From assembly GCA_902524235.1 (NCBI GenBank), contig CABZCF010000005.1, positions 1-64,000 on the forward strand: a stretch of DNA of 64,000 bases. The letters run 5' to 3'. The translations under genes were made by a program, and so were the position numbers. Source of the stretch: an uncultured Pelagibacteraceae bacterium (GTDB taxonomy: Bacteria > Pseudomonadota > Alphaproteobacteria > Pelagibacterales > Pelagibacteraceae). The notes below the pieces were generated by a model. The model did not search any database. It worked only from the letters and a program-made list of their open reading frames with translations, and was not told where the DNA came from. This document shows positions 8,260 to 41,281 of this stretch, one piece after another; position 1 is the stretch's first letter; every line of letters begins with the position of its first letter.

Positions 8260-9570
8260 ATGAGTGAAAATATATTAGTACCAGTTCTAGGAGAAAGTGT
8301 AACAGAAGCAACAGTCGCAAGGTGGTTAAAAAAAGAAGGCGAGCATGTTGCAGTAGATGAACCCGTCGTAGAATTAGAAACTGACAAAGTAAATCTAGAA
8401 GTTCCATCTCCAGTAAGTGGTGTAATAGAAAAAATAAATTCGAAAGACGGTGAGAATGTTGAGGTTGGATCTGTATTAGGAACTGTTTCAAACGAGTCAA
8501 AAAAAAAAGAAAAAAACGAAAATACAAGTGAAAAAATTCCTCCGATAACCGAAAAAATTATTAAAGAGGCGGAAACAGCAAAGTCAAAAGAACCTTCTAA
8601 AGCAGCTGAAAAAGAAACTCATAATGAAACTTCAATGTTTGAAAATGAATCTGAGGAAGAAGCACCTTTAATTTTAACTGACGAAGTTAAAAATGGGAAA
8701 TCGACAATAATTAATAAACATTTATCACCAGCTGTTAGAAAAATTGTAAACGAACAAAATATTAAACTTGAGGGCATTAAAGGTTCTGGAAAGAATGGGA
8801 CTATTTTAAAAGGTGATTTATTAAAACTTATGAGTAAAAAGCCTGAGCCTAATCAGAGAAAAGTTAAATATGGACCTGAGGAAAGAATTAAAATGACACG
8901 ACTAAGACAAACCATAGCAAAAAGATTAAAATCGGCTCAGGAAAATGCAGCAATGTTGACCACGTTCAACGAGGTAGATATGTCTGAAATTATTTCATTC
9001 AGAAAAAATAACCAGGATGAATTTCAAAAAAAATTTGGAGTTAAATTAGGATTTATGTCTTTTTTTGTAAAAGCATCTGTAAAAAGCTTAAAATCTTATC
9101 CAGCTATAAATGCAGAAATAGAAAATGATGATATAATTTATAAAAATTATTTTAATATTAGTTTTGCTGTTGGTACAGACAAAGGTTTGGTTGTTCCAGT
9201 TCTTAAAAATGCAGATGAGATGTCTTTTTCTGATATTGAGTCAGAGATAAAAACTCTATCCGAAAAGGCAAATAATGGAAATCTTTCAATTGAAGATCTA
9301 CAGGGTGGAACTTTTACTATAAGTAACGGAGGTGTGTATGGTTCTATGCTGTCAACACCAATACTAAATCCACCTCAGTCAGGAGTATTAGGAATGCATA
9401 ATATTGTAGAAAGACCAGTAGTAGTAAATAATGAAATAAAGATAAGACCAATAATGTATCTTGCATTGTCTTACGATCACAGAATAATTGATGGAAAAGA
9501 AGCAGTTTCATTTTTAAAAGAAATAAAACAATATTTAGAGGATCCTGAAAAGTTATTTTTAGAAAATTAA
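8260..9570 (+). CDS. sucB: Dihydrolipoyllysine succinyltransferase (E2)
   Basis: E2 core of the 2-oxoglutarate dehydrogenase complex, 436 residues. One N-terminal lipoyl domain (about residues 1-77) carries the lipoylated lysine in '[11 protein letters not shown]'. A charged linker (about 85-150) follows, then a peripheral subunit-binding domain ('[14 protein letters not shown]') and the acyltransferase domain, whose catalytic His and Asp sit in '[16 protein letters not shown]'. It is immediately adjacent to sucA and lpd with no gap, so the complex is made from one transcript. Confidence 0.96.
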
Positions 9571-10968
9571 ATGTCTGAAAAATTTGATGTTGTCGTTATT
9601 GGTGGTGGTCCAGCGGGATATGTCTGCGCTATAAGATCCTCTCAACTTGGCTTAAAAACTGCTTGTATTGAATCAAGAGGTTCATTAGGTGGCACATGCC
9701 TGAATATTGGATGTATACCATCCAAAAGTTTATTAAATTTATCTGAAGCATTTCATGAAGCTCAAAGCTTCTCTAAAATTGGTATTGAAACAGGAGATAT
9801 AAAATTGAATTTAGGTAAAATGATGCAAAATAAAGACAAAGCAGTAACAATTCTAACTAAAGGCGTAGAGTTTTTATTTAAAAAAAATAAAGTTACTTAT
9901 CTCAAAGGCAGAGGAAGTCTTTTGGATAAAAATAAAATATTAGTAGAAGACAAAAATAATAAACAAACAATTGAGAGTAAGAATATTGTCATAAGCACCG
10001 GATCTGAAGCAGCTTCACTACCTGGGTTAAGTTTTGATGAGGAAAAAATTTTGTCATCTACAGGTGCTTTGAATATGAGTAAAGTCCCACGAAAAATGTT
10101 TATAGTTGGTGGTGGTTATATTGGGCTAGAAATGGGATCTGTATGGTCCAGATTGGGTTCAGAAGTTCATGTAATTGAAACTCTTGACCACATTACTCCA
10201 GGATTAGATAAAGAAATATCAAGTGAATTTTTAAAAATTTTAAAGAAACAAGGTTTAAAATTTCATTTAAGCACAAAAGTCGAAAAAGTTTACAAAACAG
10301 AGAAAGGAATAAATATAGAGGTAATAGATGTAAATCAAAAAAAAGTCTTGCACGAGTGTGATGTAGTGCTTGTTTCAGTTGGTAGAAAACCTTACACCAA
10401 AAATTTAAATTTAGAAAAGATTGGTATTACTACAGATAGTAAAGGAAGAATAAAGGTAAACAAAAATTTTCAAACGAGTGAAAAAAATATTTATGCTATC
10501 GGAGACGTAATTGAGGGACCGATGTTAGCACATAAAGCTGAAGAAGAAGGTATAGCAGTAGCAGAGCTAATATCTGGCCAAGCAGGGCACGTGAATTACG
10601 ATTTAATACCAGGGGTTATCTACACTACGCCAGAGGTGGCTTATGTGGGAAAGTCTGAAGAGGAACTAAAAAAAATAAATCAAGGATATAAAGTTGGTAA
10701 ATTTCCATTTATGGCTAATTCCAGAGCAAAAGCGATTAATAAACCAGAAGGTTTTGTAAAAATATTAGCAGATAATAAGACAGACAAGGTTTTAGGTGTT
10801 CACATTATAGGACCCCATGCAGGTGAAATGATTGCAGAAATGTCCGTTGCAATGGAATTTGGTGCGAGTTCAGAAGATATTGCAAGAACTTGTCACGCAC
10901 ACCCAACCTTCTCAGAAGCAATAAAGGAAGCAGCTTTATCAGTAGATAAAAGACAAATACATTCTTAA
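9571..10968 (+). CDS. lpd: Dihydrolipoamide dehydrogenase (E3)
   Basis: FAD flavoprotein that reoxidises dihydrolipoamide for the oxo-acid dehydrogenase complexes, 465 residues. The FAD motif is 'VVVIGGGPAGYVCAI', the redox-active disulfide is 'GGTCLNIGCIPSK', the NAD motif is 'FIVGGGYIGLEMGS', and the C-terminal catalytic His-Glu pair is in 'HAHPTFSEAIKEA'. Last gene of the TCA run. The 57 bp that follow separate it from the accessory cassette and probably contain the cassette promoter. Confidence 0.97.
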   Translation: MSEKFDVVVIGGGPAGYVCAIRSSQLGLKTACIESRGSLGGTCLNIGCIPSKSLLNLSEAFHEAQSFSKIGIETGDIKLNLGKMMQNKDKAVTILTKGVEFLFKKNKVTYLKGRGSLLDKNKILVEDKNNKQTIESKNIVISTGSEAASLPGLSFDEEKILSSTGALNMSKVPRKMFIVGGGYIGLEMGSVWSRLGSEVHVIETLDHITPGLDKEISSEFLKILKKQGLKFHLSTKVEKVYKTEKGINIEVIDVNQKKVLHECDVVLVSVGRKPYTKNLNLEKIGITTDSKGRIKVNKNFQTSEKNIYAIGDVIEGPMLAHKAEEEGIAVAELISGQAGHVNYDLIPGVIYTTPEVAYVGKSEEELKKINQGYKVGKFPFMANSRAKAINKPEGFVKILADNKTDKVLGVHIIGPHAGEMIAEMSVAMEFGASSEDIARTCHAHPTFSEAIKEAALSVDKRQIHS

Positions 10969-11025
10969 TTCCTATGTCAAAACGCGCTCTTACTAATCTA
11001 AAATAAAACTATAACAGTAATTCAA

Positions 11026-12012
11026 ATGATAAAGTCTAACAATAACTTAAATTCTAAAATATTTGATGCTAGCGATATCAGTAAACCATGGGATAAGGAT
11101 AATCAGGCCTGGTGGGATTGGTATGTAACTCTAGCAGATAATAATGACAAAAAACAAAAAATCATTAATGCTAATCCTTTACCAAATATAGCAATACCTA
11201 ACGATGATGAAGTTCTCTCAGAGTTAAACGAGCCCTATGATTTAACTAATGATCAAATTAAATTTTTTAAGAAAAATGGTTTCATAAAACTCAAAAAGGT
11301 TTTTTCACCTGGTACTGTGCTTAAACTTAGAGCTAAGTTAATTAGTCTCTTAAAATATCATTTCCAGGTTGATCCAGATAAAGAAGCAAATGATCGTTTC
11401 CTTAGTCTTGAGATGATATGGCTTAATAATTCTCTTCTTCGTGCTTATGTATTATCACCGCGTCTTGGACAAATTTCTGCAAATCTTCTTGAAGTACCAG
11501 CTGTAAGACTTTACCACGACAATGTACTTGCGAAACAATCTGGATGTGGTCGTACCCCATGGCACTTCGACGATCATCATTTTCCACTAGACACTAACGA
11601 CGTAGTGACCGCTTGGGTGCCAGCACAGCCAACACCTATTGAAATGGGACCGCTATCATTTGCATATCCACTAGATGTTCATAAATTAGTTAACTCTGTT
11701 TCGTTTGAAAAAACTGGAACGGGATATGACCGAGAGATAACAAATATTTTTTCAAAAAATAAAGTTAGTATTAATGAAACTTCATTTGAACTAGGCGAAG
11801 TTAGCTTTCATCACAATTTAAGTTTTCATACAGCCTCACGCAACCGTACTAATCTTAGCCGAGTAGTCTTAGCCAATACTTATTACCGAGATGGAGCGAG
11901 AGTAGTTAATTCACCTACAATGGTCTCAGGTGATTGGCAGAAATTTATGCCAAATGTCAATCCAGGAGACATAGCCGCTAGTCCACTCAATCCAATTTGT
12001 TGGCCAGTTTAA
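11026..12012 (+). CDS. Phytanoyl-CoA dioxygenase (PhyH) family Fe(II)/2-oxoglutarate oxygenase
   Basis: A 328-residue non-haem iron, 2-oxoglutarate-dependent oxygenase of the PhyH family. The iron facial triad appears as HxD in 'PWHFDDHHFPLD' (about residues 178-189) plus a distal His in 'SFHTASRNRTNLSRV', with a following Arg in the position that binds the 2OG carboxylate. 'NDVVTAWVPAQ' and 'EMGPLSFA' are typical of the fold. About 85 residues precede the PhyH core, including an aromatic-rich 'QAWWDWYVTL'. First gene of a tight cassette with a methyltransferase and an EgtD homologue, so its substrate is plausibly a methylated amino acid or derivative. This is inference; PhyH substrates cannot be read from sequence. 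Arginine is often CGT/CGA/CGC here, unlike the AGA-dominated neighbours, suggesting transfer. Confidence 0.85.
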   Translation: MIKSNNNLNSKIFDASDISKPWDKDNQAWWDWYVTLADNNDKKQKIINANPLPNIAIPNDDEVLSELNEPYDLTNDQIKFFKKNGFIKLKKVFSPGTVLKLRAKLISLLKYHFQVDPDKEANDRFLSLEMIWLNNSLLRAYVLSPRLGQISANLLEVPAVRLYHDNVLAKQSGCGRTPWHFDDHHFPLDTNDVVTAWVPAQPTPIEMGPLSFAYPLDVHKLVNSVSFEKTGTGYDREITNIFSKNKVSINETSFELGEVSFHHNLSFHTASRNRTNLSRVVLANTYYRDGARVVNSPTMVSGDWQKFMPNVNPGDIAASPLNPICWPV

Positions 12013-12020
12013 GACAATCT

Positions 12021-12941
12021 ATGAAAGAAATAAGTAATCAAAAAGGATTAAACTCAATTTGGACCGATAGTCTTACTAGTAACATATATCCTGATGGAAA
12101 TGCTTTAGTTGATCATTTAAGAACTGTACATAAAAAACATGCTGGCTTTACAGAAGCATGTGCAAGTTCTTGTCGTGATGAAACTGGACGTAATAGTTAT
12201 GAATGGCTAGCAGAACTTGTACCCGATAATGAGGATTTACGTGTACTAGATCTTGCCTGTGGATCGGGGCCACTTTTAAAAATCTTATTTGATCGCAACA
12301 AAAAATTAAATTTGAAAGGTGTAGATATGTGTCCTGAGGAATTAGCATTGGCTAAGGTTCGTCTTGTAAATAGTGGAGCAAATCTTTTTCAGTCAAAAGC
12401 ACAAAATTTGAATGTAATTAATGATAACTCTATTGACATGGTTTTTTGCCATTGGGCTTTGACATTAATGGATCCTATAGCTCCTGTATTAAAAGAAGTG
12501 AGACGCGTTTTAACCTCCAAAGGTAGTTTTGTAGCATTAGTTGATGGACCAATGAACATAGCACCTGGCTATACTGAGGTACATGATTTAATTTATAGTT
12601 ATGTTCAAGAAGAAATACCTAGCTATGGAAAGATTGATTTAGGTGATCCAAGGGTACGAGGATCTGAGAGCCTTAGCAAACTTGTACGTAAAGTTTTTCC
12701 AAAATCAAAAGTAGTTTTTGAAACAAATGTTGTATCTATGGAAGGGCCAGCTACTCAAGTAGCAGAAATTGCAGCAGGGTTTTTCTACGCTGCTTTTGTC
12801 CTGAAACCAGAGAAAAGAAAATTGATGATTAGAAGTTTATCTAACTTGCTCGCAATATTCAAAAAAAAAACTGAGGCTAAAAGACAAGGACGATTTTCAA
12901 TGCCAATTAGTCGTCTTTTAGTTGTACCTGATATAAAATGA
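12021..12941 (+). CDS. Class I SAM-dependent methyltransferase, substrate unknown
   Basis: A 306-residue Rossmann-fold methyltransferase (Methyltransf_11/25 type). SAM motif I is 'VLDLACGSGPLL', the acidic residue closing strand 2 is in 'LKGVDMCPEEL', and motif IV is 'DMVFCHWALTLM', followed by 'LKEVRRVLTSKGSFVAL'. The ORF track begins at a TTG at 11997 inside the upstream gene. I prefer the ATG at 12021, 8 bp after the dioxygenase stop. The C-terminal 120 residues look like a substrate cap I do not recognise. Arginine codons are rich in CGT/CGC/CGA, as in the dioxygenase gene and unlike the surroundings. The stop overlaps the egtD-like start (ATGA). Likely tailors the same product as its neighbours. 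Confidence 0.82.
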   Translation: MKEISNQKGLNSIWTDSLTSNIYPDGNALVDHLRTVHKKHAGFTEACASSCRDETGRNSYEWLAELVPDNEDLRVLDLACGSGPLLKILFDRNKKLNLKGVDMCPEELALAKVRLVNSGANLFQSKAQNLNVINDNSIDMVFCHWALTLMDPIAPVLKEVRRVLTSKGSFVALVDGPMNIAPGYTEVHDLIYSYVQEEIPSYGKIDLGDPRVRGSESLSKLVRKVFPKSKVVFETNVVSMEGPATQVAEIAAGFFYAAFVLKPEKRKLMIRSLSNLLAIFKKKTEAKRQGRFSMPISRLLVVPDIK

Positions 12942-13858
12942 AATCATTTTTACAAGAAGTAAGTGTGGGCTTAAGTAAGAAAAATAAGAAGCTTAGTTCA
13001 AAATGGTTTTACGACTTTCATGGATCAATACTTTTTGAAAAAATTACTAAGCTGAGAGAATATTACCCAACACGAACTGAAAGAAAAATTTTAAAAAATA
13101 ATAAAATTGAAATTGCTGAAAAGATAGGTAAAAATGCGGTTTTAATTGAGCCAGGTGCTGGAGACATAAAAAAAGTTAGTATTTTTATGAGCACCTTAGA
13201 TGAGCCGAAAAAATATATACCCCTAGATATTTCTAAAGATTATATAACTAAAGTATCTAAAGGCTTTAAAAAGAAATTTCCTAAAGTAACTATTATTCCT
13301 AAAGGATATGATTTTTCGAGAGATAATAAACTACCTTTTAAAATTAATTCATCAGAAAATGTAACTATCTTTTTCCCTGGATCAACTATTGGTAATTTTG
13401 AAAAAAAAGATGCTATTAAATTCTTAAGAATGCTTAAATCAAAATTCAAAGCAAAAAAAATTATTGTTGGTGCTGACTTAGTCAAAGATATTCCAACTCT
13501 AATATCTGCCTACGATGACAAAAAAGGTATAACTGCAAAATTCAACAAAAATATTTTACAAAGAATTAATACTGAATTAGGTGGAAATATAAACTTAAAT
13601 TCTTATAAGCATTTAGTAATTTACAATAAGTCAAAAAAAAGAATTGAGATGCGATTAAAGTCAACCAAAAATAATAATATTAAAATAAATGGTTCAAAAT
13701 ATTTAATTAAAAAAAATGAGGAGATTCACACTGAGAATTCTCATAAATATTCTATTAAATCATTCAAAAAATTAGCTAATGAGGCAGGATGGAATATTGG
13801 GAAAACCTGGGTTGATGAAAAAAAACTCTTTAGCGTTCATTTTCTAGATCTGGCTTAA
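12938..13858 (+). CDS. egtD: EgtD-type L-histidine N-alpha-methyltransferase
   Basis: A 306-residue protein of the histidine-specific SAM methyltransferase family (Methyltransf_33), which trimethylates L-histidine to hercynine. Family marks are 'FYDFHGSILFEKITKL', 'YYPTRTE', SAM motif 'LIEPGAGD', 'FPGSTIGNF', 'SAYDDKKGITAKFN' and 'RIEMRL'. Residues known to hold histidine in the mycobacterial enzyme appear kept: Asn of 'STIGN', Tyr of 'SAYDD', and the Glu-x-Ser pair in 'TENSHKY'. That supports histidine over another amino acid. It overlaps the upstream methyltransferase by 4 bp. Codon use is AGA/AAA-rich, like the host. No EgtB, EgtC or EgtE is in the window, so the end product is unclear. 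Confidence 0.87.
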   Translation: MKSFLQEVSVGLSKKNKKLSSKWFYDFHGSILFEKITKLREYYPTRTERKILKNNKIEIAEKIGKNAVLIEPGAGDIKKVSIFMSTLDEPKKYIPLDISKDYITKVSKGFKKKFPKVTIIPKGYDFSRDNKLPFKINSSENVTIFFPGSTIGNFEKKDAIKFLRMLKSKFKAKKIIVGADLVKDIPTLISAYDDKKGITAKFNKNILQRINTELGGNINLNSYKHLVIYNKSKKRIEMRLKSTKNNNIKINGSKYLIKKNEEIHTENSHKYSIKSFKKLANEAGWNIGKTWVDEKKLFSVHFLDLA

Positions 13859-14191
13859 TAGTGCAATTTATCCTCTTACTTTTTTAAAAAAATTATTTAA
13901 GGTCTTGATAGTTCATGTAAATTTTGAAAAATCAAAAATACTAAATTTCCAGACAACTTCATAAAAATTACGTTAATGAAGGAAAAATAAAAAATAAAAT
14001 TCCTAAGTTGTTAATAAAATTGAAAAACTATAAAAATTTGTTAAAAATCTTTGGAAAATATTTGTCATTCTTGGTACATTCTCGGCACGGAAAGAATGAA
14101 GATTAATTTAATCAAAAAAGATTTGCAGTTCGAAGTTTCTAGTGTGTGTTTGGAAACATCAAAACATTCGTAATATACAAATTAAATAATT
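13859..14191 (+). other. 333-bp region between the egtD-like gene and priA
   Basis: Very AT-rich stretch without a convincing gene. It holds nested inverted repeats: ACAACTT (13953-13959) with AAGTTGT (14005-14011), enclosing AGGAA/TTCCT. Further on are an imperfect 11-base direct repeat CATTCTTGGTA/CATTCTCGGCA (14066-14087) and an 8-base inverted repeat TCATTCTT/AAGAATGA (14065-14072 with 14092-14099). A possible 25-residue ORF starts at 14096. It may hold the cassette's 3' end, a small RNA and the priA promoter, none of which can be proven by eye. Confidence 0.5.
14096..14173 (+). CDS. Possible 25-residue small ORF upstream of priA
   Basis: ATG to TAA, reading 'MKINLIKKDLQFEVSSVC' and seven more residues. 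A purine stretch (cggaaag) lies just before the ATG, and the start codon lies in the 3' arm of the TCATTCTT/AAGAATGA inverted repeat. That could occlude initiation. Codon use resembles the host. No family is recognised and such a short ORF can occur by chance, so this is a low-confidence call: either a leader peptide or small protein, or no gene. Confidence 0.22.
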   Translation: MKINLIKKDLQFEVSSVCLETSKHS

Positions 14192-16147
14192 ATGAAGTAT
14201 CCTGTACTTTTACCAAACATATTCGATCATCCATTTACATATGAAAGTGATATAAAACTTAGCATTGGCCAGTATGTTGAGGTTCCTTTTGGTAAAAATA
14301 CTCTAAATGGAGTCATTTGGGATAAATTTGAGGAAAAAAACAACAAAAAATTTAAAGTAAAAAAAATTATAAAAAGACTTGATATTCCAAAATTAAGTTT
14401 AAATACAATAAATTTTTTAAACTGGTTTTCAAAATATAATCTTATTCCTAAAGGTATGTCGCTTAAACTACATCTTTTAAGCAAAAAAGGTGTTGAAAAT
14501 AATTTAAAGTTTGACTACGAAAAGTACAATTTTAAAACTAAGGTTCACGATATTGAATTATCCGATGAACAAAAAAAAGCTTTAATTAATATAAGTAAAA
14601 TAAAAGACAAATTTAGAGCTCATGTTTTACAAGGCACAACTGGATCTGGAAAAACATACGTATATTTTCAATCAATTAAAAATAAAATTAGAAAAGGTTA
14701 TCAATGTTTAATATTATTGCCTGAAATTGGATTAACATTCGATTTCGAAAAAAAATTTGAGAATTTTTTTGGTTTCCGACCTGCAATTTGGCACTCTCAA
14801 ATTACAAAAAAAAACAAGAAAGTTATATGGAATGGACTAGTTTTAGGAAAAATCAAGGTGGTAATAGGTGCAAGGTCCTCTTTATTTTTACCATTTAAAA
14901 ATTTAGGTGAAATAATTGTAGATGAGGAACACGATCAGTCATACAAACAAGACGAAGGCGTAACTTATAATGCCAGAGATATGGCTGTAGCCCGTGCACA
15001 ATTTGAAAACATTCCTATAAATCTTGTTAGTGCAGTTCCTTCAATTGAAACTTATGAAAATATTCGAAAAAAAAAATATTCTTTTTCAAGATTAATAAAT
15101 AGATATAAAAACTACAATTTACCTAAATACGAGATAATTAATTTAAATCAAAATAGATTAGAAAGTAAATCTTGGATAAGTCCGCTTACAAAAAATAAGG
15201 TAAATGATCATCTACTTAATGGTGATCAGGTACTTTTTTTTTTAAATAGAAGAGGTTATTCTCCTTATGTAATTTGTAAAAATTGTCATAAGGTTTTCTC
15301 ATGTCCTAATTGTTCTATAAATTTAGTTTATCATTTAAATACAAATAAACTTATATGCCACTATTGTGGTTACAAAACTGAATTACATAGAAAATGCAGT
15401 AAGAATGTTAACTGTGATGTTATTTTTAGCGGTCCTGGTGTAGAAAGAATAAGTGAAGAGGTAAAAAAAAAATTTCCTAAATTTAATTCGGTAATATTTT
15501 CAAGTGATACGATGAGTAAAAAATCTTCTAAAGAAACTCTAAAGAAGATAATAAATAATGATATAAATATACTTGTTGGAACTCAATTAATTTCTAAAGG
15601 TTTTCATTTTCCAAATTTGAACTGTATAATAGTTTTAGATATTGATTTATCATCCATGGGACATGATTTAAGGTCATCGGAAAAAAATTTACAATTGTAT
15701 CATCAATTATCTGGAAGAGCTGGAAGAGCTGGAAAACCTGCGACAGTGTACTTTCAAACATATGATCTCAAATCAAAAACAATAAATCAGATTGTTAATC
15801 AGGATCCATTCAATTTTTTAGAAAATGAACTTGAAATAAGAAAAAAATATAATTTGCCACCATATGAGCGGTTTATTGCAATTATAGTAACTGCTTCAAA
15901 TGAAAAAAAATTATTTGATTTTTCAAATGAACTTAAAAATTATCTTTCTAAAAAAATAAGTGGCAAAATACTTGGTCCTGTTCAAGCTCCTATTTACAAA
16001 ATTAAAAAAAAATACAGAAATAGGCTTCTAATAAGAGCAAGCAAATCTATGGCAATTCAAAATAATTTGTCGAAAGCTTTAAAAAATTTCAAAATTCAAC
16101 CTGAAATAAAACTGACGGTTGATGTTGATCCTATTAGCTTCAATTAA
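14192..16147 (+). CDS. priA: Primosomal protein N' (replication restart helicase)
   Basis: 3'-5' DNA helicase that reloads the replisome at stalled forks. The 651 residues are somewhat shorter than the E. coli protein (about 730). Walker A is 'GTTGSGKTYVY', the DEAH-type Walker B is 'IIVDEEHDQSYKQDEG', and 'GAGRAGRAG'-like 'QLSGRAGRAGKPATV' marks the C-terminal helicase lobe. Zinc-binding cysteine pairs lie in 'CKNCHKVFSCPNC' and 'CHYCGYK', with a looser last pair 'CSKNVNC'. Stands alone on +, about 100 bp before the ATP synthase operon, an order common in alphaproteobacteria. Confidence 0.94.
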   Translation: MKYPVLLPNIFDHPFTYESDIKLSIGQYVEVPFGKNTLNGVIWDKFEEKNNKKFKVKKIIKRLDIPKLSLNTINFLNWFSKYNLIPKGMSLKLHLLSKKGVENNLKFDYEKYNFKTKVHDIELSDEQKKALINISKIKDKFRAHVLQGTTGSGKTYVYFQSIKNKIRKGYQCLILLPEIGLTFDFEKKFENFFGFRPAIWHSQITKKNKKVIWNGLVLGKIKVVIGARSSLFLPFKNLGEIIVDEEHDQSYKQDEGVTYNARDMAVARAQFENIPINLVSAVPSIETYENIRKKKYSFSRLINRYKNYNLPKYEIINLNQNRLESKSWISPLTKNKVNDHLLNGDQVLFFLNRRGYSPYVICKNCHKVFSCPNCSINLVYHLNTNKLICHYCGYKTELHRKCSKNVNCDVIFSGPGVERISEEVKKKFPKFNSVIFSSDTMSKKSSKETLKKIINNDINILVGTQLISKGFHFPNLNCIIVLDIDLSSMGHDLRSSEKNLQLYHQLSGRAGRAGKPATVYFQTYDLKSKTINQIVNQDPFNFLENELEIRKKYNLPPYERFIAIIVTASNEKKLFDFSNELKNYLSKKISGKILGPVQAPIYKIKKKYRNRLLIRASKSMAIQNNLSKALKNFKIQPEIKLTVDVDPISFN

Positions 16148-31345: not shown

Positions 31346-32216
31346 TGTTTTAATTGTTGGTTGTGGCTTAATTGGTTCTTCAATCTTAAAAAGCTCAATA
31401 AAAAATAAAATTTCAAAAAATATCTATGTTTACGAAAAATTAAAAAAAAATATAAAAATCATAAGAAAAATAAATAAGAGAATTAAATTCATCCCTAACT
31501 TAAACAAAGATCTAGAAATGATGAATTTCATAATAATTTGTGCTCCCATGAGCGAATATAAATTTATCTTTCCAAAAATAAACAAATTTATGTCAGAAGA
31601 TTCAGTTATAACAGAGGTGGGATCTACTAAACGAAATTTGATTAAATTTACAAAAAATAAAAACTTAATTTTAAGTCATCCTATCGCTGGATCTGAGGTT
31701 AGTGGGCCAAAGTTTGGAAGCAAAGATTTATTTAATAAGAAATGGTGTATCTTAATTAACAAAGGTAAAAAGAGCAAAATTAATACTGTAAAAAAATTTT
31801 GGAAAAAACTAGGTTCTAACGTAATTTTGATGAATGCTAAAGAGCACGATAAAATTTTTGCCATTACAAGTCATCTTCCACATTTAATAGCTTATAACTT
31901 AATAAAAACAGCTCAAGATTATCAAAAGGTTGAAAAAAAAAATATAATCAAATATAGCGCTGGTGGCTTAAGAGATTTTTCAAGAACAGCTGCATCCAAC
32001 GAAATTATGTGGAGAGATATATTTTTTAGTAATAAAGATAATATGATTAATTCAATTAATAAATTTATTAAAAACCTTAATTTAATAAAAAAAAAAATTA
32101 AAGCCAACAAAGATAAAGAGCTTAAAAAAATTTTGACGAATTCAAAAAAAGTCCGAAAGCAAATTATTGACTGGAAACAAGATGTTTCAAAACCAGATTT
32201 TGGAAGAGAAATTTAG
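31335..32216 (+). CDS. tyrA: Prephenate/arogenate dehydrogenase
   Basis: NAD(P)-dependent enzyme of tyrosine synthesis, 293 residues. The Rossmann motif is 'VLIVGCGLIGSSI', the catalytic-region signatures are 'ICAPMSEY', 'EVGSTKRNLI' and 'SHPIAGSEVSGP', and 'ITSHLPHLIAYNL' is typical. The ORF track begins 19 codons upstream. I chose the ATG at 31335 because the Rossmann fold begins there, overlapping hisC by 11 bp. The C-terminal half is very lysine-rich. Prephenate versus arogenate preference cannot be told. Confidence 0.9.
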   Translation: MFNNVLIVGCGLIGSSILKSSIKNKISKNIYVYEKLKKNIKIIRKINKRIKFIPNLNKDLEMMNFIIICAPMSEYKFIFPKINKFMSEDSVITEVGSTKRNLIKFTKNKNLILSHPIAGSEVSGPKFGSKDLFNKKWCILINKGKKSKINTVKKFWKKLGSNVILMNAKEHDKIFAITSHLPHLIAYNLIKTAQDYQKVEKKNIIKYSAGGLRDFSRTAASNEIMWRDIFFSNKDNMINSINKFIKNLNLIKKKIKANKDKELKKILTNSKKVRKQIIDWKQDVSKPDFGREI

Positions 32217-32962
32217 ATTTTATATATTTTTTTTACTTTTAGATTAGTAGTTTGCTGAATTATATTTATTGTATTTTTGATTGGCATTATTAAAACTTTT
32301 TTCCTAGGTCCATAAGCATGTATTAGCATTCTATTATTTAAACAAACCGCAACATGTCCATTCCAAAAAATTATATCCCCTTTCGAATACGTTTTTTTAA
32401 TTTTATAACCCTTTTTAATTTTAATTTGGTCAATCGTATCTCTTGGAAAAAATTTCCGATTAAATTTATAATACATTTGTATTAAAGCGGAACAATCTAT
32501 ACCCATGTAAGATTTTCCTCCCCATTTATAAGGACAATTTAAAAATAATTTAAAAATTTTATTATAATCATTAACTTTTCTATCTATTGGTATAACTTCT
32601 TTTCTTTTTATCCATTTATTATTTTCAAACATAATCAGATTTTTTTTTGACTTTAAAATTTCTATTTCACTTAAAAAAGGAAGGAAGGTATTGGATAGTT
32701 TGGTTTTTCCTTTTTTTTGTAAATAGATCCTTGATTTCAGACATATTACTTTATGAGTTGGTTTATAGTTTGATCTAAAATTGTTAAAATTTATGTAACC
32801 AATATATCTGTCATAAAAATTTTTAATTTTAATATAATTTTTGCTTCTTGATATGATTTGAAATTTTTCACCGTAAATTAATTGACTACTAACCTTAGAA
32901 GATTTCTTTGGCTCCAAAAGAACATTTATAACTGGCTTTGTGCAAAAAAAATTATTTTCCAC
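32213..32962 (-). CDS. NlpC/P60 family cysteine peptidase with SH3-like domain
   Basis: A 249-residue peptidase that likely cuts gamma-D-glutamyl-diamino acid bonds in peptidoglycan peptides. An SH3-like domain (about residues 10-65) precedes the NlpC/P60 core with the catalytic Cys in 'YMGIDCSALIQMYY', the catalytic His in 'WNGHVAVCL', and a following 'HAYGP'. No signal peptide or membrane segment is seen, so it is probably cytosolic. It overlaps the AmpG-like gene by 11 bp, which fits cleavage of imported muropeptides. This role is inferred. Confidence 0.82.
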   Translation of the reverse strand: MENNFFCTKPVINVLLEPKKSSKVSSQLIYGEKFQIISRSKNYIKIKNFYDRYIGYINFNNFRSNYKPTHKVICLKSRIYLQKKGKTKLSNTFLPFLSEIEILKSKKNLIMFENNKWIKRKEVIPIDRKVNDYNKIFKLFLNCPYKWGGKSYMGIDCSALIQMYYKFNRKFFPRDTIDQIKIKKGYKIKKTYSKGDIIFWNGHVAVCLNNRMLIHAYGPRKKVLIMPIKNTINIIQQTTNLKVKKIYKI

Positions 32963-34322
32963 TTATTACAATTTTATCTTTAATAAACCACAAACATATT
33001 AATGAAGGAATTACCATCAAAGTAGTGATTATAAAAAAAGTACCCCAATCACCATTTAACCAATCAACTAAAGCTCCAGAGGAGGATGCAAGTGTAGTCC
33101 TTCCAGCTGTACCAATCGAAGCAAGTAGTGCGTATTGAGTTGCAGTATATGTTCTGTCTACAAGCAAAGATATAAAGGCAACAAAAGCAACAGTTGCAAA
33201 TGCAGCTGAGATATCATCAGCTATGACTGCTAAAGCAAATAGCCATTCAGATTTGCCTGACCAAGCAAGTAAAGCAAATAAAAGATTTGTTGCGGCCATA
33301 AAACCTCCAGCAACAAACATTGTTTTGATGGTTCCTGATCTCATAGCAAACACCCCACCAATTAAAGTAAAAACCACAGTCGTTATCCAACCCAATGTTT
33401 TAGAATAAATTGCAATTTCTCCTTTAGAAAAACCAATTTCCTTATAAAATACAATAGACATCCTACCAAGAAAAGCTTCCCCAATTTTGAATAAAAATAC
33501 AAAACCTAGTATCCAAATAGCAATTGTAAATCCATTTTTTTTGAAAAAGCTAATTATTGGATTTCCGATAGTTCCTGATATGTATGCAACAAATCTACTT
33601 AATTTATTTGATGATCCTAGTTTTTCCTCAATTAATTTATCATTTTCCGATTGTTTTATTTGTCTTAGATTATTACTTTGTTCGTGAACAAACATTAAAG
33701 CTATGTTCATCAAAATAACTATTCCGCCCAAAACTAAAAAAGTCGATTGCCAATAATCCTCAATACCAACATTTTCAAAAAACTGTGCTGTAAATAAAGC
33801 AATTACTCCACCAAGCTTATATCCTGTCCACCATCCTACAACAGCTACTGCGGCACCTGCTGCCATTGATTTTCCTTCATTAGCATTAATTTGCTCAATT
33901 CTTAAAGCATCAACCGTTATATCTTGGGTCGCAGATGCAGTTGCAATAATTAATCCAACTCCAATAAGAAGAGCTAAATTTTGTGTAGGATTTATTACAC
34001 TCCAAATTAATAAACTTAACAAAATAATTAATTGCATTAAAACTATCCACCCTCGTCTATGACCAATTTTTTTTGATAAATAAGGTATTTGTATTCTATC
34101 CACTAAAGGAGCCCATAAATAATTAAATGCGTAAACACCGAATATCAAACCTGCCCATCCAATAGTTGATCTACTCAACCCCTCCTCTTTGAGCCATAAA
34201 CTCAAACTGCTAGCAATTAAAACCCATGGAAAACCACTTATTGCTCCTAATAAAAGAATTCTTAACATTCTAATATCTCTATAAACTAGTATTGACTCAG
34301 ACCAGGATTGTTTTTTTTTCAA
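32952..34322 (-). CDS. ampG: AmpG-like MFS muropeptide permease
   Basis: A 456-residue major facilitator with about 12 hydrophobic segments. 'LLGAISGFPWVLIASSLSLW', 'WAPLVDRI', 'GHRRGWIVLMQ' and 'ATASATQDITVDALRIE' match the AmpG family, which imports anhydro-muropeptides from the periplasm. The position between trkH and a cytosolic-looking NlpC/P60 peptidase supports a peptidoglycan recycling role. Substrate is inferred from the family. Confidence 0.85.
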   Translation of the reverse strand: MKKKQSWSESILVYRDIRMLRILLLGAISGFPWVLIASSLSLWLKEEGLSRSTIGWAGLIFGVYAFNYLWAPLVDRIQIPYLSKKIGHRRGWIVLMQLIILLSLLIWSVINPTQNLALLIGVGLIIATASATQDITVDALRIEQINANEGKSMAAGAAVAVVGWWTGYKLGGVIALFTAQFFENVGIEDYWQSTFLVLGGIVILMNIALMFVHEQSNNLRQIKQSENDKLIEEKLGSSNKLSRFVAYISGTIGNPIISFFKKNGFTIAIWILGFVFLFKIGEAFLGRMSIVFYKEIGFSKGEIAIYSKTLGWITTVVFTLIGGVFAMRSGTIKTMFVAGGFMAATNLLFALLAWSGKSEWLFALAVIADDISAAFATVAFVAFISLLVDRTYTATQYALLASIGTAGRTTLASSSGALVDWLNGDWGTFFIITTLMVIPSLICLWFIKDKIVISGK

Positions 34323-34325
34323 TCA

Positions 34326-35774
34326 TTAAAATTTTCTCCAAAACGACGGGATAAATAAAACTAAAATTGCAAAAAGTTCAAGTCTACCTAGTATCATTGC
34401 AAAACTTAAAATCCATTTTGAATTATTAGAAATTTCCGCAAAATTTCCATTAGGACCAATGTTATCTCCTAGTCCAGGACCAACATTAGATATTGCTGTA
34501 GCAGCAGCTGATAACGCTGATACAAGATCAAGACCGTTAATTGTTAATAAAGAAGTAACTATAAAAAAAATTATAAAGTATAAATATATAAACGAGATTA
34601 CCGATGACATAAATTTTTCATCAATATTTTGTTTTTCATATTTCATATTAAATACTCCGTGAGGATATATTATTTTCTTTATCTGATTAGAAAAAAACTG
34701 ATATAAGATTTGAACTCTAAATATTTTTATTCCACATGTCGTAGATCCTGCACATCCTCCAATAAACATGAGGATCAGAAAGAAAAATAGTGGGAAATTA
34801 CCCCAGCTACTGTAGTTTTCAGTGACATATCCAGTTCCAGTTAAAACAGATACAACATTAAATGAAACTGAAAGAAAATCTATTTCATAAAAATTTTTGT
34901 TAACTATTGAAAGATAAATAAACAAGAAAAATATGGAAAATATAACAATCTTAAAAAATAATTTAATTTGGCTATCTGATATAAATATTTTTTTATCTCC
35001 GTTTAAAAACTTTAAGTAAACAATAAAAGGAATACTGCCTGATAAAATAAAAATTATGGAAGTGATTTCTATGTATGAATTATTAAAATATCCAATCGAT
35101 TCATTATAATTAGAAAAACCTCCGGTTGCTATTGTAGTCATTGCATGAGTAAAACTATCAAAAAAATTCATTCCGCAAATTTTGTATAAAATTGAACACA
35201 AAAAAGTAAGTGATAAATAAATTAAAATTAATCTAAGAGATATCTCTTTTGTTTTTGGTAGAACTTTTTCAGTTTTATCATTTGTTGATATTTTAAATAA
35301 TTGCATACCACCTACATTCATTATTGGCATTAGTGTTATAGCCATGACAATGATTCCGATTCCACCTAACCATTGTAACATTGACCGCCATAGCAATATA
35401 CTTTTTGGTGTATCATTCAGGTTAGAAATTATTGTTGAACCCGTAGTAGTAATCCCAGACATGCTCTCAAAAAAAGCATCAGTTAGAGACAAATTTATTT
35501 CAGAAAAAATAAATGGCAATGACCCAAATATTGCAATACTTAACCATGAAAGAGACGTAAGCAAAAAAGCTTGTTGTAAGTTTATTTTTTTGTCATGGTC
35601 TAAATTTGAGAGATAAAATAACATTCCGAATATTATTGTAGCTAAACCTGATACAATAAAACCTGAGTCTGATTCACTATATACTAATTGTATCAACACT
35701 GGGATTATCATTGATAAACCTAGAATAATTTGCAGCAAGCCTAGAGTGAAAAAAACTGTTTTGTAATTGGACAT
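34326..35774 (-). CDS. trkH: Trk-type potassium uptake protein TrkH
   Basis: Membrane pore protein for K+ uptake, 482 residues with many hydrophobic segments. Four selectivity-filter repeats can be seen: 'ITTTGST', 'IATGGF', 'LTGTGYV' and 'ISNVGPG'. It needs a TrkA partner, which is not in the window. It is 3 bp upstream of the AmpG-like gene on the same strand and diverges from lysK across 88 bp. Confidence 0.92.
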   Translation of the reverse strand: MSNYKTVFFTLGLLQIILGLSMIIPVLIQLVYSESDSGFIVSGLATIIFGMLFYLSNLDHDKKINLQQAFLLTSLSWLSIAIFGSLPFIFSEINLSLTDAFFESMSGITTTGSTIISNLNDTPKSILLWRSMLQWLGGIGIIVMAITLMPIMNVGGMQLFKISTNDKTEKVLPKTKEISLRLILIYLSLTFLCSILYKICGMNFFDSFTHAMTTIATGGFSNYNESIGYFNNSYIEITSIIFILSGSIPFIVYLKFLNGDKKIFISDSQIKLFFKIVIFSIFFLFIYLSIVNKNFYEIDFLSVSFNVVSVLTGTGYVTENYSSWGNFPLFFFLILMFIGGCAGSTTCGIKIFRVQILYQFFSNQIKKIIYPHGVFNMKYEKQNIDEKFMSSVISFIYLYFIIFFIVTSLLTINGLDLVSALSAAATAISNVGPGLGDNIGPNGNFAEISNNSKWILSFAMILGRLELFAILVLFIPSFWRKF

Positions 35775-40406: not shown

Positions 40407-41280
40407 TGTTTTGATTTTTGATTAGACCTTTATAAGCATCAATTCGTCTGTCTCTCAGAAAGGGCCAGTGTTGCCTAGCATTTTCTACCTTTTTTAAATT
40501 TATGTCACAAACTAAGATTCCTTCTTCGTTTGATTTTAGTTTCGATATTATATTTCCATTAGGATCTATGACAACAGAATTACCCCAAAATTCAATTTCC
40601 CTTTTCCCTTTTTTTTCTTTTCCAACTCTATTTATTGCTACAACAAAAACACCATTAGCAATTGCGTGTGATCTTTGTATTGTAATCCAAGAGTCTAGTT
40701 GAGATTTTCCATACTTCTTTTTTTCTTTAGGATGCCATCCAATTGCCGTAGGGTAAAATATTATCTCTGAACCTTTTAATGTAGTAAGTCTAGCTGCTTC
40801 AGGAAACCACTGATCCCAACAAATAAGTGTTCCTATATCGCCAAATTTAGTTTTCACATTTTTAAATCCCAAATCACCTGGTGTAAAATAAAATTTTTCA
40901 TAATATCCCGGGTCATCCGGTATATGCATCTTTCTATATTTTGATATTATTTTTCCATTGAAGTTAATAGTGACACAGGTATTGTAATAAATCCCAGATA
41001 ATTTTTTTTCAAATAAAGAAATAATTAATATAACGTTTAATTCTTTTGCTAACTTACAAAAAATATCAGAAGTAGAGCCAGGAACTTTTTCTGCAATTTT
41101 AAAATAGGAGTGATTTTCAATCTTACAAAAATATTCTGTCAGGAATAGCTCTGGCATACAAATAATTTTTGCACCCTTACGTGCTGCCTCTTTTATTTTG
41201 CTAATTGAATTTTTTAAATTAAATTCTTTATTTTTTGTAATTTTAAGTTGAATAACACCAACTTTGGTTTTTTTTGACAT
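40399..41280 (-). CDS. aguB: N-carbamoylputrescine amidase
   Basis: Nitrilase-superfamily enzyme converting N-carbamoylputrescine to putrescine, CO2 and ammonia. The Glu-Lys-Cys triad is visible in 'MPELFLTEYF', 'YRKMHIPDDPGYYEKFYF' and 'GTLICWDQWFPEAAR'. The ORF track begins 25 codons upstream within the next gene. I chose the ATG at 41280, where the conserved 'KVGVIQLKI' start follows, giving 293 residues. It lies 1 bp after the deoxyhypusine-synthase-like gene. Confidence 0.92.
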   Translation of the reverse strand: MSKKTKVGVIQLKITKNKEFNLKNSISKIKEAARKGAKIICMPELFLTEYFCKIENHSYFKIAEKVPGSTSDIFCKLAKELNVILIISLFEKKLSGIYYNTCVTINFNGKIISKYRKMHIPDDPGYYEKFYFTPGDLGFKNVKTKFGDIGTLICWDQWFPEAARLTTLKGSEIIFYPTAIGWHPKEKKKYGKSQLDSWITIQRSHAIANGVFVVAINRVGKEKKGKREIEFWGNSVVIDPNGNIISKLKSNEEGILVCDINLKKVENARQHWPFLRDRRIDAYKGLIKNQNND

Positions 41281-41281
41281 T

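Follow-up and report, generated by a model that had tools for sequence, protein, structure and literature searches.

A mobile oxygenase-methyltransferase pair accompanying EgtD in SAR11 bacteria: a probable hercynine-tailoring module

A three-gene cassette from an uncultured member of the Pelagibacteraceae, encoding a PhyH-type oxygenase, a class I methyltransferase (MT) and a predicted hercynine synthase (EgtD), is probably a mobile, horizontally exchanged module for the tailoring of hercynine. On balance, we think that a PhyH-MT pair, exchanged among lineages and joining the resident EgtD, lets SAR11 and a handful of other bacteria produce an undescribed oxidised and further methylated hercynine, giving hercynine a fate beyond ergothioneine. 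In the open-licence literature we found no paper that connects a PhyH enzyme with EgtD or hercynine, nor one on ergothioneine in SAR11. Few cells in the sea are as numerous as those of SAR11, and their genomes are tiny; a three-gene cassette that selection retains and that passes from lineage to lineage must therefore earn its cost. If this reading is true, hercynine is a branch point and not only the precursor of ergothioneine, and marine metabolomes would hold a betaine still to be discovered.

The cassette lies in a stretch of 64,000 nucleotides (contig CABZCF010000005.1 of assembly GCA_902524235.1), termed here the window, and its features are as follows.

10969-11025, no strand: 57-bp junction after lpd, the left edge of the cassette as judged from relatives without it
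11026-12012, + strand: PhyH-type Fe(II)/2-oxoglutarate (2OG) oxygenase, 328 aa (PF05721, alignment to 2a1x and 5epa, invariant columns)
12021-12941, + strand: class I SAM-dependent methyltransferase, MT, 306 aa (Methyltransf_11 and related Pfam models, AlphaFold2 model)
12938-13858, + strand: predicted EgtD, L-histidine N-alpha-trimethyltransferase (hercynine synthase), 306 aa (TIGR03438, structure match, pocket residues)
13859-14191, no strand: 333-bp spacer from egtD to priA, the right edge of the cassette as judged from the loci compared

The open reading frame coordinates confirm the layout given by an earlier sequence-only reading, namely three + strand genes with an 8-bp gap between PhyH and MT and an ATGA overlap between MT and EgtD, placed between lpd (9571-10968) and priA (14192-16147). 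The start of MT was set at ATG 12021 since homologues favour it over a possible upstream TTG at 11997. In one relative without the cassette (G015) some 22 bp are all that separate lpd from priA, and two other relatives each have a different single gene there, indicating that lpd-priA is a real insertion site for small cargo. The spacer before priA has equal length in locus L031 and is shorter in L032. The window's genome is of the SAR11 single-cell type, and the contig AG-422-B19 holds the trio and its neighbouring genes at 97-100% identity to the window. For each of the three genes dN/dS is about 0.1-0.2, which points to purifying selection on all three and thus to functional genes, not chance open reading frames. 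Elsewhere in the window, two regions of about 870 bp each (31346-32212 and 40407-41281) are free of open reading frames of at least 70 aa although the genome is otherwise gene-dense, and no Rfam or tRNA match was found within the window, these two regions included. The adjoining block at 32213-35774 encodes an SH3/NlpC-like protein, an AmpG-like MFS transporter and a TrkH-like potassium transporter, and a matching block is the insertion site of PhyH-MT in the other SAR11 group (L070 and L072).

The identification of the last gene as an EgtD homologue was borne out. The protein scores 345.7 bits against TIGR03438 (egtD; curated cut-off 290.9) and 323 bits against PF10017, and it matches the structure of Mycobacterium smegmatis EgtD with E=3e-42. 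The histidine-binding residues Y39, Y56, N166, Y206, E282 and S284 (M. smegmatis numbering) are all identical in the window EgtD, and the pocket residues are invariant across 61 aligned EgtDs, including those linked to EgtB. By the curated cut-off and the retained histidine-binding residues, the window EgtD is classed as a genuine histidine-type enzyme, and the cassette very probably makes a histidine betaine.

The first gene product matches the PF05721 PhyH profile with 46.8 bits (cut-off 22). Its residues H180, D182, H268 and R279 are invariant among 12 diverse homologues and align with residues of human phytanoyl-CoA hydroxylase (2a1x; weak overall similarity, E=0.0015) that we take to bind the metal and 2OG. 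H180, D182 and H268 are the putative metal ligands and R279 the putative 2OG-binding residue, and an HxD motif in place of HxG speaks against a halogenase. The N-terminus carries an aromatic motif, DNQAWWDWYV, that hardly varies across the window's PhyH family as represented by the 12 diverse homologues, and more distant relatives align only from about residue 62 onward. The nearest relatives beyond this tight family share at most 45% identity and reside in unrelated gene clusters; plasmid matches (up to 45%) likewise belong to unrelated sugar/esterase/dehydrogenase clusters, and no relatives were found in phage records. Beyond the window's own, a phylum-wide sample of 399 genomes held only two distant PhyH proteins, in clusters of the sugar/esterase/dehydrogenase type, and in the Actibacterium family, sampled with 229 genomes, there was no PhyH carrier besides the known one. 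The AlphaFold2 model of PhyH (12 homologues, pLDDT 41) was too poor for inspection of the pocket, where aromatic residues of the N-terminus (W29, W30, W32 or Y33) might cage a trimethylammonium group.

MT has a Rossmann-type fold and motif I, which place it among the class I SAM methyltransferases, and it scores 57.1 bits against Methyltransf_11 (cut-off 21.2). Its AlphaFold2 model is confident (pLDDT 87); a Foldseek search with it returned only generic class I methyltransferases, S-, N- and O-methylating, with no hint of the substrate. None of the named equivalogs (UbiE, BioC, MetW and others) was passed, the best score being 51.7 bits against cut-offs above 100, and with a generic model and no named family the substrate is unreadable from homology. 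A further class I methyltransferase of about 280 aa, here called X, lies between PhyH and MT in five loci (L104, L106, L107, L109 and L110). This PhyH-X-MT arrangement is frequent outside SAR11, namely in Marivita, Thioalkalivibrio, Rhodobacteraceae, Actibacterium and Oleiphilaceae. Relatives of X, about 50% identical, occur unlinked in three carriers (G418, G423 and G424), in the last of which the gene adjoins fabF and mltG, where pabC is often found. Because X was absent from all ten SAR11 carriers tested and is unlinked in these three others, we left it out of the core.

When scanned, public genomes yielded 153 stretches encoding relatives, and the 80 best were retained. These 80 are mostly from Pelagibacteraceae single cells at 78-99% identity, and outside SAR11 they include Marivita, Burkholderiales, Thioalkalivibrio, Rhodobacteraceae, Actibacterium and Oleiphilaceae at 67-77% identity. 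The trio is therefore conserved elsewhere, which the earlier reading had made one touchstone of its proposal: PhyH and MT occur together at all of the roughly 105 loci examined, and about two thirds of those from SAR11 have EgtD immediately 3′, in many cases with an EgtB gene shortly upstream. In the non-SAR11 loci EgtD is nearby in several cases, in other orientations. The notion of a three-gene cassette needs amending in one respect; the trio is real, but the inseparable unit is PhyH-MT, with EgtD either adjacent or elsewhere. Across the loci examined we found no dedicated transporter or regulator accompanying this unit.

Several other neighbourhoods were observed around these genes. In two SAR11 loci (L038 and L121) an EgtB-PhyH-MT-EgtD site adjoins glutamate-cysteine ligase, glutathione synthase and two transporters of the EamA and MFS types. 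Two further loci (L118 and L119), from SAR11 genomes without PhyH or EgtB, hold a tight row of a TmpA-like TauD-family dioxygenase, an HD-domain oxygenase, an MFS transporter and, last, EgtD, which may be a third set of EgtD partners or phosphonate-betaine catabolism genes sharing the site. A GcvT/DmdA-like demethylase and a partner of about 242 aa, possibly MTHFR-like, adjoin EgtD or EgtB in the SAR11 loci L115 (near 8820-10911), L122, L125, L168 and L169.

The link between PhyH-MT and EgtD extends to the whole genome. Among 397 Pelagibacterales genomes, one per species, PhyH was found in 24, EgtD in 49 and EgtB in 31, and EgtD was present in 23 of the 24 PhyH genomes vs. 26 of the 373 others (Fisher p = 1e-22, a value that overstates independence since these are related genomes, many of them incomplete). 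A stronger argument than this p-value is the recurrence with several EgtD lineages and in carriers outside SAR11. EgtD was present in all eight PhyH carriers outside SAR11, vs. 10 of 49 other genomes in a Pseudomonadota sample, and in 18 of the 22 SAR11 genomes whose PhyH-MT has no adjacent EgtD, an EgtD is encoded elsewhere. In the tree, the partner EgtDs fall in several separate lineages while PhyH stays 67-99% identical, indicating that the association has been re-formed. EgtD was not found in five incomplete PhyH-MT genomes (G373 and four more), one of which, G442, may be the same genome as G373. Since PhyH-MT accompanies different EgtDs, linked or not, it most likely needs the product of EgtD.

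As for which product, EgtB was undetected in 16 of the 23 SAR11 carriers with EgtD and is present in seven of the 24 SAR11 carriers, and it was found neither in the complete one-contig genome G179, where PhyH-MT-EgtD is present, nor in the window's genome (85% complete). Conversely, 16 of the 19 genomes with EgtD and without EgtB carry PhyH-MT, and the three exceptions include one EgtD lying 324 bp from a contig end. With most SAR11 carriers lacking EgtB, the product needed by PhyH-MT is more likely hercynine than ergothioneine, and in such carriers hercynine probably does not pass to ergothioneine by the known EgtB route. Carriers that also have EgtB could use ergothioneine as the substrate instead of hercynine.

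These data bear on other explanations. EgtB and PhyH-MT are largely alternatives in EgtD-bearing SAR11, with EgtB in seven of 23 EgtD genomes having PhyH vs. 23 of 26 without it (p = 4e-5), and EgtB lies immediately 5′ of PhyH in many loci and 3′ of MT in L105. Both facts would suit a PhyH-MT that replaces or extends EgtB, yielding ergothioneine or a sulfur relative by another route, or decorating ergothioneine; we nevertheless regard this as similarly unlikely to the order of steps considered next, as the existence of carriers with both EgtB and PhyH-MT means that PhyH is no simple stand-in for EgtB, ergothioneine synthesis needs no further methyltransferase, and we know of no PhyH enzyme that forms C-S bonds. 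The operon order PhyH-MT-EgtD could mean that PhyH and MT act first, producing a modified histidine such as beta-hydroxy- or N-methyl-histidine that EgtD then trimethylates, and the co-occurrence would fit equally since EgtD is still required. That EgtD acts last is unlikely, however, given that its pocket has the residues of plain L-histidine enzymes, the same as in EgtB-linked EgtDs, and that PhyH-MT is also paired with ordinary EgtB-linked EgtDs (G444 and G446).

The mobility of the unit can be read in two ways. The 72 loci compared show at least 18 different upstream neighbours of PhyH-MT, and when the window is set against L032 the trio has a dS of 0.15-0.28 vs. 1.56 for lpd, so the cassette was exchanged more recently than its surroundings. 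Movement among many sites and exchange between lineages also favour the view that PhyH-MT makes or degrades a compound unrelated to histidine, and that its link to EgtD stems from a common way of life or from joint transfer within hypervariable regions. We consider this rather improbable, because the EgtD association holds when the genes are unlinked and across EgtD lineages, and because the order PhyH-MT-EgtD with its tight junctions is retained at many insertion sites. Highly improbable is a bacterial DMSP-type synthesis in which MT would be a DsyG-like S-methyltransferase and PhyH its decarboxylating partner, and we know of no link between DMSP synthesis and EgtD. DsyG and MT have PF08241 in common and the hosts are marine, however the DsyD domain is defined as PF04115 and not PhyH (PMC11306096). 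A Pfam profile search found PF04115 in none of the three cassette proteins, and DMSP synthesis by this methyltransferase-oxygenase pair of marine bacteria was rejected as largely excluded by domain content.

We return to the tailoring of hercynine as our preferred reading. The modified histidine betaine that had been proposed as the product stands as the best explanation of a genuine EgtD, a conserved trio and the co-occurrence of PhyH-MT with EgtD when unlinked; that PhyH and MT act on hercynine itself we infer from the gene association. In the likely order of steps, EgtD would act first, using three SAM to trimethylate L-histidine at its alpha-amino group and so form hercynine, PhyH would then oxidise hercynine with O2, Fe(II) and 2-oxoglutarate, and MT would follow. 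2OG oxygenases such as FIH and MINA53/NO66 hydroxylate the beta-carbon of histidine, and trimethylammonium acids are beta-hydroxylated by the 2OG enzymes trimethyllysine and gamma-butyrobetaine hydroxylase. From these precedents we propose, as a guess by analogy, that PhyH may hydroxylate hercynine at the beta-carbon adjoining the imidazole. MT might then, again as a guess, place a methyl group onto the new hydroxyl or onto an imidazole nitrogen. The end product would presumably be a modified betaine retained in the cell with a protective role, for which antioxidant, osmolyte and metal ligand are the candidates. Some of the other carriers belong to groups or samples that we take to be associated with saline habitats; a role as bulk osmolyte is less attractive in a nutrient-limited SAR11 cell because each molecule holds three nitrogens.

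Among known systems, SnoK/SnoN and MysH share the PhyH fold family and the conserved metal site with the window PhyH and are its nearest solved structures by sequence, but the similarity is low (SnoK E=1e-10, MysH E=0.03) and their substrates and pathways are different; we know of no link between them and EgtD. Gamma-butyrobetaine hydroxylase (BBOX), trimethyllysine hydroxylase (TMLH), TmpA and EctD resemble the proposed step in that they use Fe/2OG to oxidise small molecules that are zwitterionic or carry a trimethylammonium group. However, the first three are TauD-family enzymes (PF02668) whereas the window protein is a PhyH, and EctD, although PhyH-like, is no close match to it. The selenoneine (SenA) and ovothiol (OvoA) pathways likewise involve histidine-derived, methylated compounds and an iron-dependent oxidation, but they rely on sulfoxide synthases of the EgtB fold, and PhyH has another fold and chemistry. 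The EgtB near the module in L105 is an ordinary one, scoring 474 bits, above the EgtB cut-off and below those of SenA and OvoA. Closest is the ergothioneine pathway (EgtB-EgtD), with which the module shares its first step through the EgtD family, and EgtB adjoins the module in some genomes; the difference is that the window's genome and many others have no EgtB, and EgtD is partnered instead by PhyH and a second methyltransferase.
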